Part shown: positions 6,525 through 13,139 of the stretch, piece by piece
Numbering within the stretch: position 1 is the first letter of the stretch
How the letters are laid out: every line of letters starts with the position of its first letter
Source: Bradyrhizobium sp. CIAT3101
Lineage (GTDB): Bacteria > Pseudomonadota > Alphaproteobacteria > Rhizobiales > Xanthobacteraceae
Length of the DNA: 64,000 nt
Direction of reading: 5' to 3'
Assembly: GCF_029714945.1 (NCBI RefSeq)
Contig: NZ_CP121634.1
Span: 744,001 to 808,000 of the forward strand
Made by a program: the position numbers and the translations under genes
The notes under the pieces: model-generated
Databases searched by the model: none
What the model was told of the DNA's origin: nothing
What the model saw: only the letters and a program-made list of their open reading frames with translations

Positions 6525-7619
6525 TCACCCCTCCGGCATCGCCCCCACATACGACGAACTCGGCCGGATCAACCGTCCCGTCCGCTGCTGCTCGCGCGCG
6601 TGCGCGGTCCACCCGGCGCTACGTGCCACCGCGAAGATCGGCGTGAACGCCTGCCGCGGGATCGCCAGCGCGTCGAGCAGGATCGCGGTGAAGAACTCGA
6701 CATTGGTCTCCAGCGGCCGCTCCGGATTCTTCTTGCGCAGCGCTGCGCGGATATAGGCCTCGACCTCGCCGGCAAACGGCAGGTCGGTGCCGTTGGTCGC
6801 GAGCGCCTCGACCGCGGTCTTGAGCACGTCGGCGCGCGGATCGCGCACGCGATAGACGCGGTGACCAAAGCCCATCATCCGCTCGCCGCGCGCCAGCGCC
6901 GCATCGACCCAGGGCTGGATGCGTTCGCGCGAGCCGATCGCATCGAGCATTTCCAGCACCGGCTCCGGCGCGCCGCCATGCAGCGGACCCGTCAGTGCGC
7001 AATAGCCGGCGGTGACGGCCGCGAACAGATCGGCCTGCGTCGAGGCCACCACGCGCGCGGCGAAGGTCGAGGCGTTCATGCCGTGGTCGCTGGCGGTGAC
7101 GAGATAGGCATCCAGCGCCGTGACCTCGCGCGATGCGGGCGCGCGCCCATGCAGCATGCGCAGCGTATCGGCGGCATGGCTCACGTTCGGATCGGGCGCG
7201 ATCGGATCGAGCCCTTTCGCGCGCCGGACCAGCGCGCCCGCGATCACCGGAAACGCGCCGACGATGGTTGCTTCGTGCTCCAGCCCGGGCTCGGCGCGCA
7301 GGCCCGCGACCGCCGCACGAAACCCGTCGATGATGCCCATGCCCTGGGTCGCCGGCAGCAGTTCGGTGAGCCGTGCGAAAGCGCGCTCGCGCGCCGCACC
7401 CAGGCTCGCCCGGACATTGGCTTCGGTCAGGGTGGTCTTGCTGGCGCCGTTCCAGAGCCGGGCGGTGACGCCCTCAAAGCTCGATTTGGCGGCGAGGGTA
7501 CCGACATGCTCGCCGGCGATGATCAACTCGCCGCGTTCGCCGTCGACATGGCTCAGCACGGTTTCGGCCGCGGGAACGCCGTCCAGCCCGATCTGGCTTT
7601 TGGTGAGGTGGATGTTCAT
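6525..7619 (-). CDS. Citrate synthase / methylcitrate synthase family protein
   Basis: 364-residue citrate-synthase fold protein. Family members condense acetyl- or propionyl-CoA with oxaloacetate. The two catalytic His are present in TGPLHGGAPE and MGFGHRVYRVRDPRA. The segment that normally carries the catalytic Asp reads NVEFFTAILLDAL, with Glu in that place; the C-terminal FAVARSAGWTAHAREQ and RPSSSYVG are conserved. I start it at the ATG at 7619 because AAGGAGA lies a correct distance upstream; the frame is open to 7679. It is shorter than the main TCA enzyme (about 430) and paired divergently with a second paralogue, so a dedicated or regulatory role is more likely than being the housekeeping gltA. 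Substrate is not deducible. Confidence 0.88.
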   Translation of the reverse strand: MNIHLTKSQIGLDGVPAAETVLSHVDGERGELIIAGEHVGTLAAKSSFEGVTARLWNGASKTTLTEANVRASLGAARERAFARLTELLPATQGMGIIDGFRAAVAGLRAEPGLEHEATIVGAFPVIAGALVRRAKGLDPIAPDPNVSHAADTLRMLHGRAPASREVTALDAYLVTASDHGMNASTFAARVVASTQADLFAAVTAGYCALTGPLHGGAPEPVLEMLDAIGSRERIQPWVDAALARGERMMGFGHRVYRVRDPRADVLKTAVEALATNGTDLPFAGEVEAYIRAALRKKNPERPLETNVEFFTAILLDALAIPRQAFTPIFAVARSAGWTAHAREQQRTGRLIRPSSSYVGAMPEG

Positions 7620-7669
7620 GGCCCAATCTCCTTTTGCACTGCACCAGGAGAAAATCGGATCTCTCGACA

Positions 7670-7698
7670 GATTGATCAATCTTGATTACATCAATCAA
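7670..7698. promoter_or_regulatory. Cluster of TTGAT/ATCAA dyads between divergent citrate-synthase genes
   Basis: Within 29 bases there are a perfect 12-base palindrome GATTGATCAATC (7670-7681), a perfect odd palindrome TTGAT-TAC-ATCAA (7682-7694) and a wider dyad TTGATT-ACATC-AATCAA (7682-7698). The cluster is AT-rich in a GC-rich region and lies in the 80-base gap between the starts at 7619 and 7700. This is the expected location of an operator for the helix-turn-helix domain of the downstream protein. The spacing of three excludes a standard FNR/FixK box (N4). Confidence 0.7.
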
Positions 7699-7699
7699 T

Positions 7700-8914
7700 A
7701 TGAAAAATTCTGAAGGTCTCTATCTCTCTGCCCGGGAAGCCGCGGCCGAGCTCGCGATCTCGCCGGCCACGCTCTACGCCTATGTCAGCCGTGGCCTGAT
7801 CCGCTCCGAGCCGACCCCGGATTCGCGCAAGAACCGCTATCGTGCCGAGGACGTCCGTGCCCTGAAGGAGCGTCGGGTGCCGTCGCCGGAGCCGCGCGGC
7901 CTGCGCAGCTTCGATGCCGACCTGCCGGTCATGGACACGGAGATCTCGACCATCACCGAGGAGGGCGCGATCTACCGCGGCGTCAACTGCATCGTTCTCG
8001 CCGAGAACGACACGCTGGAGCACACCGCAACGCTGCTCTGGGACGTCTCCGACGTCGATCCCTTCGCGCCGGATAATCAGCCGAAGATTTCCGACGAGAT
8101 GCGTGCAATTGCGGACGCCGCGCGCCGCGCAGCCCCGATCGATCGCGCCATCGCGGTGCTCGCGCTCGCGGCCAGCGCCGATTCGCGCGCTTTCACCCGC
8201 GCGCCCGATGGCCGCGCGATGGTCGGCGCGCGCATCGTCCGGCTGCTCGTTGCCACGATGCTGAATTCCGAACCGTCATCGGAGCCGCTGCATCAGCAGA
8301 TCGCGCGAATCTGGGCGGGCGACAACAAGCACGCGCCCGACCTCATCCGCCGCGCGCTGGTGCTGCTCGCCGATCACGAACTGAACGCCTCGACCTTCAC
8401 CGCGCGCTGCGCGGCGTCCACCGGGCTCAATCTCTACGATGCCGTCATCGCCGGCCTCGCCGCGCTGAAAGGCCCGAAACACGGCGGCGCCGGCGTGCTG
8501 GCCTCGCAGCTGGTCAAGACGCTGGTCGATCGCGACGTCGAGCCGATGGTGCGCGAGCGCGTCGCGCTCGGCGAGCGTTTTCCGGGCTTCGGCCACGGCG
8601 TCTACAAGCGCGGCGATCCCCGCGCGCAATCGCTGCTGAACGCGCTGGCCCGTGCCGGCGCGCCGCGCAAATTCACCAAAGAGGTGCCTGAGCGGATCGC
8701 GGAGGCGACCGGAGAGTTCGTCAATATCGACTACGTCCTCGCCGTGCTCGTCCACGCGCTGCGCTTACCCGCGGGCAGCGAGCTCGCCCTGTTCGCGATG
8801 GCCCGCAGCGTCGGCTGGATCGCGCATGCGAGCGAGCAATTGCAGTTCGGCAAGCTGATCCGGCCGCGGGCAAGGTATGTGGGACCGGCGCCGGGGCGGA
8901 GGGCAGGGGGATAG
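7700..8914 (+). CDS. Helix-turn-helix domain fused to citrate synthase
   Basis: 404-residue fusion. Residues about 7-60 form a MerR/excisionase-like winged helix (LSAREAAAELAISPATLYAYVSRGLIRSE, then RYRAEDVRALKERR). The rest is a full citrate-synthase fold with both catalytic His (GPKHGGAG; PGFGHGVYKRGDPRAQ), the Asp (FVNIDYVLAVLVHAL) and the C-terminal MARSVGWIAHASEQ and RPRARYVGP. The Arg that usually follows the second His (GHRVY) is Gly here. I prefer the ATG at 7700; a TTG at 7682 is in frame but would cover the dyads. No Shine-Dalgarno is visible, so translation may be leaderless. The fold probably senses an acyl-CoA or oxo-acid and controls the divergent gene. That is inference from architecture. 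Confidence 0.88.
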   Translation: MKNSEGLYLSAREAAAELAISPATLYAYVSRGLIRSEPTPDSRKNRYRAEDVRALKERRVPSPEPRGLRSFDADLPVMDTEISTITEEGAIYRGVNCIVLAENDTLEHTATLLWDVSDVDPFAPDNQPKISDEMRAIADAARRAAPIDRAIAVLALAASADSRAFTRAPDGRAMVGARIVRLLVATMLNSEPSSEPLHQQIARIWAGDNKHAPDLIRRALVLLADHELNASTFTARCAASTGLNLYDAVIAGLAALKGPKHGGAGVLASQLVKTLVDRDVEPMVRERVALGERFPGFGHGVYKRGDPRAQSLLNALARAGAPRKFTKEVPERIAEATGEFVNIDYVLAVLVHALRLPAGSELALFAMARSVGWIAHASEQLQFGKLIRPRARYVGPAPGRRAGG

Positions 8915-9795: not shown

Positions 9796-10092
9796 GAGGT
9801 CTCTGTAGCGGGCTGGGGCATTCGGGTTCAGACCCTTACATAAGTAGGGTGGGGCGATGAAAGTGCCATTTGCCTGGGCAGGGCGCCTATCCGGCGCGAA
9901 ATTTGGGCGGGATTTGCAGGGCAGCCTTCCAAAAATCGCGTTCCTTGCCTATCTAAATGAAAAGACAACGGAACTTTGATTGGTGCATGGGCTTCTGCCG
10001 GCACGTTGTCTCTGATACGTTCGCAGACGCACCCAGCCGCAGCCAACGTGCAAATAACTGGTCTCGGGACCGCCCGGGGCCTCGGAGGATTG
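9796..10092. other. Gap upstream of cobS
   Basis: About 300 bases between the divergent dedA and cobS starts. I looked for a B12-riboswitch core and saw none. No supported gene. Presumably holds both promoters, which I could not place. Confidence 0.4.
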
Positions 10093-11091
10093 ATGACGAC
10101 CGCCGCCCTGTCCAAAGTTGAGGAAGTTTCCGGTTTGCCCGACATGAAGGTGTCGGTGCGCCAGGTGTTCGGGATCGACAGCGATCTCGAAGTGCCGGCC
10201 TATTCCGAAGTCGATCCTCACGTGCCCGAAGTCGATTCCGACTACCGTTTCGACCGCGCCACCACGCTTGCCATTCTCGCCGGCTTCGCCCGCAACCGCC
10301 GCGTGATGGTGACCGGCTATCACGGTACCGGTAAATCCACCCATATCGAGCAGGTCGCCGCCCGCCTGAACTGGCCCTGCGTGCGCGTCAACCTCGACAG
10401 CCACATCAGCCGTATCGATCTCGTCGGCAAGGACTCGATCGTGGTCCGCGACGGCAAGCAGGTCACCGAATTCCGTGACGGCATCTTGCCGTGGGCACTG
10501 CAGAACAACGTCGCGCTGGTGTTCGACGAATACGACGCCGGCCGTCCGGACGTGATGTTCGTGATTCAGCGCGTGCTGGAAGTCTCCGGCCGCCTGACGC
10601 TGCTCGACCAGAACAAGGTGATCAAGCCGCATCCGTCGTTCCGCCTGTTTGCGACAGCCAACACGGTCGGCCTCGGCGACACCTCGGGCCTCTATCACGG
10701 CACTCAGCAGATCAACCAGGGCCAGATGGACCGTTGGTCGATCGTCACCACGCTCAACTACCTCAGCCACGACGAGGAAGTGGAGATCGTGCTGGCGAAG
10801 GCCAAGCACTATCGCACCCAGGAAGGCCGCGACATCGTCAACAAGATGGTCCGCCTCGCCGATCTCACCCGTAACGCCTTCGCCAATGGCGATCTGTCGA
10901 CGGTGATGAGCCCGCGTACGGTGATCACCTGGGCCGAGAACGCCGACATTTTCGGCGATATCGGCTTTGCGTTCCGCGTCACCTTCCTCAACAAGTGCGA
11001 CGAGCTCGAACGTCCGCTGGTCGCCGAGTTCTACCAGCGCTGCTTCAATGCGGAGCTGCCGGAATCGGCAGTCAACGTGGCGCTGTCCTGA
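10093..11091 (+). CDS. cobS: Aerobic cobaltochelatase subunit CobS
   Basis: AAA+ subunit of the three-part cobaltochelatase (CobN, CobS, CobT), which inserts cobalt into hydrogenobyrinic acid a,c-diamide in the aerobic B12 pathway. The 332 residues carry an N-terminal CobS segment ([21 protein letters not shown]), Walker [10 protein letters not shown] (about residues 76-84), Walker [11 protein letters not shown] and a sensor region [14 protein letters not shown]. The start at 10093 has GGAGG just upstream; the frame is open to 9976 but the family begins here. cobT follows on the same strand; cobN is not in the window. Confidence 0.96.
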
Positions 11092-11103
11092 TCTCTCTCG
11101 TGG

Positions 11104-11224
11104 CATGGGTCCGGCGAAGGCCGGGACCCATGCCGCGAGGTCTCTCGATGACGCGACGCTGATCATTTTCCCTGACGCACCAACCGTCGGTGGCTATGGG
11201 TCCCCGCCTTCGTGGGGACGACGG
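11104..11224. repeat. Dispersed intergenic inverted repeat, family A copy 2
   Basis: Ends CATGGGTCCGGCGAAGGCCGGGACCCATG and TATGGGTCCCCGCCTTCGTGGGGACGACGG resemble the ends of the copies at 6329 and 15031, but the middle differs. It lies inside the cobS-cobT gene pair, immediately before the cobT ribosome-binding region, so it may affect the amount of CobT made relative to CobS. Confidence 0.7.
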
Positions 11225-11234
11225 TGAGATCGAG

Positions 11235-13139
11235 ATGAGCACGCCCTCCAACTCCAAATTCCGCAACACCAAGGAAGCGCCGACCGAGCCGTTCAAGCGC
11301 TCGGTGGCCTCGTGTCTCAAGGCGATCGCCAAGGCGCCCGAGCTCGACGTGAGCTTCGCGGCCGAGCGCCCGGGCCTCGCGCCCGGCAAGGCGCGGCTGC
11401 CCGAGCCGGCGCGAAAAATGACCAAGCGCGATGCCGCGATCGTACGGGGCCACGCCGACTCCATCGCGCTCAAGATCGCCTGTCACGACGCCAAGCTGCA
11501 TCGCAAGCTGATGCCCGGCAATCCGCAGGCGCGCGGCGTGTTCGAGGCGGTCGAGCAGGCCCGTGTCGAGGCGATCGGCGCGCGCCGCATGGCCGGCGTT
11601 GCCAAGAATCTCACCGCGATGCTCGACGATCATTTTCACCGCGGCAAGTTCGACGAGATCACCGACCGCGCCGATGCGCCGCTGGCCGATGCGCTGGCAA
11701 TGCTGGTGCGCGAGCGCCTGACCGGCATGGCGCCGCCGACGGCCGCCAAGAAGATGGTCGATCTCTGGCGTCCGATTCTCGAAGACAAGATCGGCAAGCG
11801 GCTCGATCGGCTCGATAACCTCGTCGAGGACCAGACCAGGTTCGGCGACGCCGTGCATGATCTGCTGACCGCGCTCGAGCTCGGCGACGAGCGCAGCGCC
11901 GACAGCGAAGACAATGACGACAACGACGAGAACCAGGACGGCGACAACGATCAGTCCGGCGCCGAGGGCTCGCCCGATTCCGATGCCGCGCAGGAGATGA
12001 GCGCCGACCAGGCGCAGGCGTCGTCGGAAGAGATGAGCGACAGCGCGATGGAAAGCGCGCAGGCCTCGACCTCGGATACGCTCGACGACGGCGAACTCGG
12101 CGACGACGAGACGCCGGGCGAGGCGACGCGTCCGAACGCGCACGGCAAGAACGAGCCGCGCGGGCCGGAATATCACGCCTTCGCGCCCAAGTTCGACGAG
12201 GTCATCGCGGCCGAAGATCTCTGCGACCATGACGAGCTGGAGCGCCTGCGCGCCTATCTCGACAAGCAGCTCGCGCATCTGCAGGGCATCGTCGCCCGTC
12301 TCGCCAACCGCCTGCAGAGGCGCTTGATGGCGCAGCAGAACCGCGCCTGGGAGTTCGATCTCGAAGAGGGCATCCTCGATCCCGCGCGCCTGTCGCGCGT
12401 CGTGACCGATCCCCATCATCCGCTGTCCTTCATGCACGAGAAGGAGGCGACGTTCCGCGACACCGTGGTGACGCTGCTGCTCGACAATTCCGGCTCGATG
12501 CGCGGACGTCCGATCACGGTGGCTGCGACCTGCGCCGACATTCTCGCGCGCACACTGGAGCGTTGCGGCGTCAAGGTCGAGATCCTCGGCTTCACCACGC
12601 GCGCCTGGAAGGGCGGGCAATCGCGCGAGGCGTGGCTTGCCGCCGGCAAGCCGGCCAATCCCGGTCGCCTCAACGATCTCCGCCACATCATCTACAAGTC
12701 CGCCGACGCCCCGTGGCGCCGTGCGCGGAAAAACCTTGGCCTGATGATGCGCGAAGGGCTGCTGAAGGAGAACATCGACGGCGAGGCACTGGATTGGGCG
12801 CACAAGCGCCTGCTCGGCCGGCCCGAGCAGCGCAAGATCCTGATGATGATCTCCGACGGTGCGCCGGTCGACGATTCCACGCTGTCGGTCAATCCCGGCA
12901 ACTATCTCGAGCGGCACCTGCGCCACATCATCGAGGAGATCGAGACCCGCTCGCCGGTCGAGCTGATCGCGATCGGCATCGGCCATGACGTGACGCGCTA
13001 CTATCGCCGCGCGGTGACGATCGTGGACGCCGAAGAGCTCGGCGGCGCCATCACCGAAAAACTCGCCGAACTCTTCAGCGAGACCAACACCGCGCCCACG
13101 CAACCGGCCAATCGCCCGCGACGCAAACTGCATTCGTGA
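11235..13139 (+). CDS. cobT: Aerobic cobaltochelatase subunit CobT
   Basis: CobT partner of the CobS AAA+ ring in cobalt insertion. The 634 residues match the rhizobial family length. The N-terminal domain (1-215) is followed by a very acidic stretch at about 215-290 ([17 protein letters not shown] and repeats rich in Asp, Glu and Ser). The C-terminal von Willebrand A domain begins near 400 with the metal-ion site DNSGSM (about 417-422) and has later [10 protein letters not shown]. The start at 11235 begins [11 protein letters not shown], the usual family N-terminus; an in-frame ATG at 11190 lies within the repeat and is rejected. The stop overlaps the next gene by four bases (GTGA). Confidence 0.96.

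Follow-up and report, generated by a model that had tools for sequence, protein, structure and literature searches.

A gene of Bradyrhizobium sp. CIAT3101 that reads as a citrate synthase joined to a helix-turn-helix (HTH) most probably encodes a one-component regulator, which would sense an acyl-CoA or oxo-acid and control both itself and its divergent neighbour. This reading comes from sequence comparison: the protein carries an HTH, and a conserved site lies at its own promoter. The initial annotation had offered two possibilities, a regulator or a mixed enzyme formed with the neighbouring citrate synthase; the former is now strongly supported, whereas the latter does not hold as a general rule. 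Three observations favour the regulator: the site tracks the fusion across phyla, fusion and partner are present together or absent together in 35 genomes of the same genus, and the likely Caulobacter counterpart, CitC, does not complement loss of citrate synthase in the experiments described in PMC7083601.

The window, meaning the whole stretch of 64,000 nucleotides that was analysed, corresponds to positions 744001-808000 of a genome of 9.37 Mb in a single contig. The features under study are collected in Table 1.

Table 1. Features of the divergent locus, in window coordinates
Feature	Position	Strand	Details and basis
HTH-citrate-synthase fusion gene, proposed one-component regulator	7700..8914	+	404 aa; ORF, Pfam HTH_17 and Citrate_synt
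HTH_17/MerR-type DNA-binding domain, residues 8-59	7721..7876	+	Pfam HTH_17, 29.1 bits (cut-off 27)
Citrate-synthase-fold domain, residues 74-390	7919..8869	+	Pfam Citrate_synt (PF00285), 215.8 bits (cut-off 27)
CitA-type citrate synthase gene, divergent partner, proposed target	6525..7619	-	364 aa, ATG at 7619
Likely ribosome-binding site of the citA-type gene, GGAGA	7627..7631	-	Read from sequence
Proposed operator, 24 bp, TCAATCTTGATTACATCAATCAAT	7676..7699	+	Conserved site in aligned gaps
Possible fusion promoter, TCGACA (7664-7669) - 17 bp - TACATC (7687-7692)	7664..7692	+	By eye

A DNA-binding head on a citrate synthase fold

The fusion reading frame begins with an ATG at 7700 and ends with a stop codon at 8912-8914; in the ORF list the same frame opens at a TTG at 7682. 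As the initial annotation had proposed, the 404-residue protein is headed by a MerR/excisionase-like HTH, recognised as HTH_17 at residues 8-59. The HTH_17 score of the window protein is barely above its cut-off, and the Pfam cut-offs for MerR and MerR_1 are missed (20.7 against 28.2 and 18.6 against 21.6, respectively). Such scores could be annotation noise, from a citrate synthase paralogue that resembles an HTH protein by chance while some other regulator binds the conserved promoter, but this is extremely improbable: HTH_17 is matched by 62 of 64 diverse fusions, and the site described below tracks the fusion rather than the partner gene or the lineage. In the same alignment (A2, n=64, E<=0.01) Citrate_synt is matched by all 64 members, MerR by 54 and MerR_1 by 58, and over 133 fusion loci the HTH residues Y26, S30, R31 and Y47 are conserved at 1.00 (rounded).

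The catalytic and oxaloacetate residues are all kept in the window fusion (H226, H261, H299, D344, R308, R369 and R388), in agreement with the earlier observation that both catalytic histidines and the aspartate are retained. Across the 133 loci these seven columns are invariant save for one His to Gln (L047), a constancy that at H226 and R388 is partly selection, since both columns sit in the search patterns of the wider genome scan, and that is unaffected at the other five. The glycine reported in place of the GHRVY arginine is also present: G300 aligns with the position where E. coli GltA carries Arg. The residue after the catalytic histidine is variable among the fusions, with proline the commonest, and both PrpC rows carry proline at that position, so the Arg-to-Gly change was rejected as the mark of a dead fusion. 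Similarly, the absence of a segment at CitA 294-300 was rejected as a sign of lost function, as both PrpC rows are without it too.

Describing the citrate synthase fold as complete was slightly too strong. The Citrate_synt match does extend over residues 74-390, but the segment corresponding to CitA 129-142 amounts to three residues or fewer in 36 of 38 fusions, including that of the window, compared with 10-14 residues in 26 of 26 enzymes; two fusions (L047 and L061) retain it. This region presumably carries the CoA-phosphate-binding arginine in pig citrate synthase, and if an arginine of the region binds the CoA phosphate, loss of the segment could weaken catalysis. The fusion misses all curated NCBIfam synthase cut-offs, its best scores being 162.7 against 332 (NF009005) and 162 against 421.3 (TIGR01800). 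In a tree of 65 rows, a branch with 100/100 support separates the 26 enzymes (GltA, CitA and PrpC) from all 38 fusions, and on this basis a recent duplication of the partner was rejected as the origin of the fusion. A citryl-CoA-lyase-like row falls on the fusion side of the tree on a very long branch, where its placement is unsure.

The near invariance of the catalytic residues counts against the regulator reading, since a pure DNA-binding protein would need fewer of them. It would suit a trigger enzyme: an active synthase of the citrate or methylcitrate type, able to bind the operator as well, whose turnover, perhaps of propionyl-CoA or another acyl-CoA, is the signal. The proline that the fusions share with PrpC, and the prpB/prpBC and CoA-transferase neighbours counted below, point in the same direction. 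This version of events, which is compatible with the regulator reading, is nevertheless rather unlikely: the segment found in every enzyme is missing from nearly all fusions, the fusion falls below each NCBIfam synthase cut-off, and CitC fails to complement an E. coli gltA deletion in the experiments described in PMC7083601.

The divergent partner is a CitA-type citrate synthase

The gene opposite had been described as a 364-residue citrate synthase paralogue with Glu where Asp is usual. This description was correct, and glutamate proved to be the normal residue of the subfamily. The partner scores 330 bits with Citrate_synt (Pfam) and 436.2 with the citrate synthase model NF009005, above the cut-off of 332; by sequence, its nearest solved structure is B. 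subtilis CitA (2c6x). Residues H179, H214, H253, R262, E308, R333 and R352 supply the catalytic His/His/acid set and the oxaloacetate arginines, with E308 aligned to the Asp of E. coli GltA. Glutamate at the catalytic acid was rejected as the mark of a dead partner, since it occurs in 71 of 71 CitA-type partners (10 Caulobacter-type ones included) and in 2c6x. The starts of the two genes are 80 bp apart. The other citrate synthase genes of the genome are a housekeeping GltA-type gene at 4327802 and two shorter citrate-synthase-like genes.

In B. subtilis, citA is divergent from the LysR regulator gene citR. The two loci are alike in placing a CitA-type synthase with Glu for Asp opposite a regulator; CitR, however, is a LysR protein, whereas the regulator proposed here has a citrate synthase fold.

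A conserved site, the proposed operator, abuts the fusion gene

Alignment of the gaps beside the fusion start gave the operator pattern TCAATNTTGATT-N6-ATCAAT. In the window the inner palindrome consists of TTGATT (7682-7687) and AATCAA (7693-7698) separated by 5 bp; the last base of the operator abuts the fusion ATG, and the citA-type start is about 55 bp away. The 9.37 Mb genome contains a single exact match, at 7676-7699, and every other match has 3 mismatches, a tolerance at which 0.01 chance matches are expected in the window. One of the 3-mismatch matches is the window operator itself on the opposite strand. As nothing but the exact match scores under 3 mismatches, the idea of a wide regulon for this genome was rejected.

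Another 3-mismatch operator-like sequence of the same genome (L039:8387-8410; G000:C1:7000386-7000409) lies about 126 bp upstream of a gene pair that is CoA-transferase-like (by eye) and citryl-CoA-lyase-like. It may be a chance match, as it falls within the beginning of a reading frame that runs the other way.

The operator overlaps the candidate fusion promoter, which would possibly yield a nearly leaderless mRNA. A consensus promoter scan returned no promoter at its threshold, this candidate included.

The fusion and the proposed operator occur together

Among 35 genomes of the same genus, the fusion and a CitA-type match occur together in 31, and the remaining 4 have a GltA-type match only. 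At one mismatch or fewer, the operator is found in 30 of the 31 genomes with the fusion and in none of the 4 without it (Fisher p 1e-4). The sole fusion-bearing genome without an operator match is G014, where a contig end truncates the fusion and the CitA-type match is found on a different contig. Additional operator matches were seen elsewhere in three genomes of the genus, at 1 mismatch in G018 and G019 and as a second exact match away from the fusion in G017 (C1:7786013-7786035), the latter possibly an extra target.

In a sample of 385 alphaproteobacterial genomes, the fusion was detected at E<=1e-40 in 42, a set that includes the genome of the window and one other of its genus; weaker fusions exist below this threshold, such as that of G122, which was matched by profile. 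The exact operator occurs in 19 of the 42 fusion genomes, each time beside the fusion, and in 1 of the 343 genomes below the threshold (p 1e-19), a value to be read, like that for the genus, in light of the pattern being partly drawn from the same loci and of related genomes sharing descent. When 1 mismatch was permitted, 79 of the 385 genomes gave matches, and at that tolerance chance matches are common.

The gene facing these 42 fusions is a divergent citrate synthase in 31 cases (30 CitA-type, together with the GltA-type gene of L061), a CoA-transferase, DUF2332 or cation-efflux gene in 2 cases each and another gene in 3 (L047, L068 and L159); 2 loci are cut by a contig end. Five alphaproteobacterial sites are degenerate (L042, L049, L054, L056 and L068), and the operator was not found at three Caulobacterales-type fusions (L154, L158 and L168); these sites and absences count against the regulator reading. 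The neighbour of L158 and L168 is a cation-efflux gene (Pfam), and that of L154 looks similar by eye. The DUF2332 pairs come from two genomes of one genus (L163:5224-6345 and L164:2809-3900), each with an operator, and are a possible clue to DUF2332, a family of unknown function.

The proposed operator is kept while the partner changes

A wider scan searched named genomes with IRPRARY[TVI]G and ADHELN[AP]S as patterns. From at least 590 loci the best 80 were taken, so the proportions that follow are not unbiased; partner families were checked on a subset, with the rest classed by tblastn to those, and some neighbours are out of view because the contig ends or the flank is short. Bradyrhizobium accounts for 14 of the best 80, all with a divergent CitA. 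At the other 66 loci the fusion faces a CitA-type gene directly in 31 and with a gene between in 3, the intervening gene being leuB-like in L117 and a PLP-enzyme gene in L129 and L139, where it is on the fusion's strand and the fusion follows it. A CoA-transferase family III gene faces the fusion at 19 of the 66, mostly in Burkholderiales, and prpB at 7 (six Xanthomonadales-type and one Eremiobacterota), followed by prpC wherever the contig extends far enough. The others face an HMGL-like gene (3 loci), an MFS transporter (1) or none of the searched families (2; L132 and L154).

Characterised HMGL-like proteins, of the homocitrate/isopropylmalate-synthase type, condense an acyl-CoA with an oxo-acid and belong to a family unrelated to citrate synthase. 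Two of the genes found here (L133:2550-3848 and L145:2596-3936) have homocitrate synthase as their best match, far below its cut-off, and the third locus (L131) was grouped with them by tblastn only. The neighbours of such fusions, whose survey the initial annotation had recommended, are mostly citrate or acyl-CoA genes; the partner varies and the site stays.

We trained a weight matrix on 28 alphaproteobacterial sites and applied it to 61 further loci. The top score lay upstream of the fusion, exceeding that of any other 275-bp segment of the locus, in 57 of the 61, a figure that includes some remaining alphaproteobacterial loci close to the training set; for loci outside this class, as judged from record titles, the count was 34 of 37. 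The failures were L122, L129, L139 and L154. Compared with 100 shuffles of each upstream region (fixed 6-bp spacer), the best shuffle was beaten in 55 of 61, the exceptions being L102, L111, L129, L133, L139 and L154. By mismatch count, a site with 3 or fewer mismatches among 17 fixed bases occurs no more than 260 bp ahead of the fusion at 63 of the 66 non-Bradyrhizobium loci (spacer of 6 bp in 53 and 5 bp in 10), and at 35 of 37 loci outside Alphaproteobacteria. In L129 and L139 the PLP-enzyme gene and the fusion look like one operon, and the site precedes that operon, between it and the CitA gene; L154 has no operator, with a 5-bp spacer allowed. The operator remains beside all four kinds of partner (CitA, prpB, CoA-transferase and HMGL-like); L132, with no recognised member of the partner families searched, has it too. 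Because the site persists whatever the partner, it is assigned to the fusion itself, and this is the strongest reason for doing so.

The same survey bears on the mixed enzyme, in which the fusion and the CitA-type protein would make a hetero-oligomeric synthase tethered to DNA. The two proteins share a fold and a conserved neighbourhood, and around the window's genes the fusion and partner subtrees branch alike. A CitA-type partner is, however, absent from the flank examined at 32 of the best 80 loci, 19 of which face a CoA-transferase, and Caulobacter CitB functions alone in E. coli (PMC7083601, in the work on CitB and CitC). A mixed enzyme is therefore very improbable.

Caulobacter CitC is a probable orthologue of the fusion

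CitC (CCNA_03758) and CitB (CCNA_03757) of C. crescentus are citrate synthase paralogues with adjacent gene numbers; an E. coli gltA deletion is complemented by CitB but not by CitC, and CitC is presented as a paralogue without citrate synthase function (PMC7083601). The main text of that report contains neither 'helix-turn-helix' nor 'MerR', and the identities it gives to B. subtilis CitA and E. coli GltA are 37/30 for CitB and 32/33 for CitC. For comparison we used ten genomes of one Caulobacter-type genus (g320); its family was reached through a locus that shares 67% identity with a Caulobacterales record. In all ten the fusion is divergent from a CitA-type gene and the operator is present. 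Identities to the same two enzymes are 35-37/27-30 for the ten partners; the fusions give about 32/33 in four genomes and 27-31/31-34 in the other six.

The adjacency of the two genes, which resembles that of fusion and partner, and the similar identity figures suggest that CitC is very probably an orthologue of the fusion. Among the 120 matches listed in a protein search from a Caulobacterales fusion, none was named as a protein of Caulobacter crescentus. If CitB is of this CitA type, glutamate at the catalytic acid is compatible with function, because all ten g320 partners carry it. Orthology would offer a testable reason why CitC is without citrate synthase function; its failure to complement could reflect poor expression instead.

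A model for control of both genes

In the regulator reading, the N-terminal MerR/excisionase-type HTH would bind the conserved palindrome at 7676-7699. Known citrate synthase enzymes are dimeric, and a dimeric fold could offer two HTH heads to such a site. We infer that the fusion senses an acyl-CoA or oxo-acid: oxaloacetate and/or a short acyl-CoA, or the condensation product, would shift the fold between its open and closed states and thereby change DNA binding. Because the site touches the fusion start and lies close to that of the citA-type gene, occupation of this one site could govern the two genes together.

Whether control is positive or negative is a guess. We favour ligand-relieved repression of both promoters, and self-repression in Bradyrhizobium in particular, because there the operator runs up to the fusion ATG and may overlie a promoter. 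The opposite sign, in which the fusion would act as a MerR-like activator that binds a promoter whose spacer is too long and, once ligand-bound, remodels it, is somewhat unlikely. It is consistent with the MerR/HTH_17 type of the HTH and with the position of the site, at several non-Bradyrhizobium loci, between TNGTCA and TATAAA/TATATA elements about 20 bp apart (by eye). It is at odds with the Bradyrhizobium arrangement, where the abutting ATG means that such a promoter cannot serve, and with the variable distance from the site to the partner start (20 to 130 bp for CitA-type partners; it is 152 for the GltA-type partner of L061).

In the regulator reading, Bradyrhizobium would bring in its auxiliary CitA-type synthase when the supply of acetyl-CoA or oxaloacetate demands it; elsewhere this pairing of protein and site would control prpBC, CoA-transferase or homocitrate-synthase-like genes, depending on the lineage. 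A bolder proposal, which we consider unlikely, is that these are ancient cross-phylum regulators whose citrate synthase sensor has its active site intact and still turns over substrate, the condensation being read out at one conserved operator ahead of CitA, the methylcitrate cycle, a CoA-transferase or a homocitrate-type synthase.

Regulators built on enzyme folds are known, among them MocR/PdxR (aminotransferase fold) and the ROK repressors (sugar-kinase fold). As proposed for the fusion, these combine an HTH with a former enzyme fold as sensor, and they differ from it in not using that of citrate synthase. The MerR family shares with the fusion a MerR/HTH_17-type head and a short palindromic site; the window protein differs in missing the MerR and MerR_1 cut-offs and in the citrate synthase fold that follows the head. 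A literature search found no description of an HTH-citrate-synthase regulator. An earlier prediction for the prpBC loci is possible, and the work likeliest to bear on them is reportedly the comparative genomics of malonate and propionate regulation by Suvorova and co-workers (J Bacteriol 2012). No such regulator is described in the available portions of PMC9739823, PMC12542777, PMC7083601 and PMC11475020, and a term search of the text of PMC5343134 came back empty; that CitC corresponds to the fusion is our proposal.

Public genomes label the fusion class 'citrate synthase' or 'citrate synthase family protein'. A class so labelled that is probably regulatory affects metabolic models and gene counts, and it would add an enzyme fold of central metabolism to the known sensors. 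Moreover, an operator shared across phyla lets target genes be called straight from sequence. Elsewhere in the window, at 9976-13139, an AAA ATPase-like ORF is followed by a 649-aa ORF, a pair that has a CobS/CobT look by eye.
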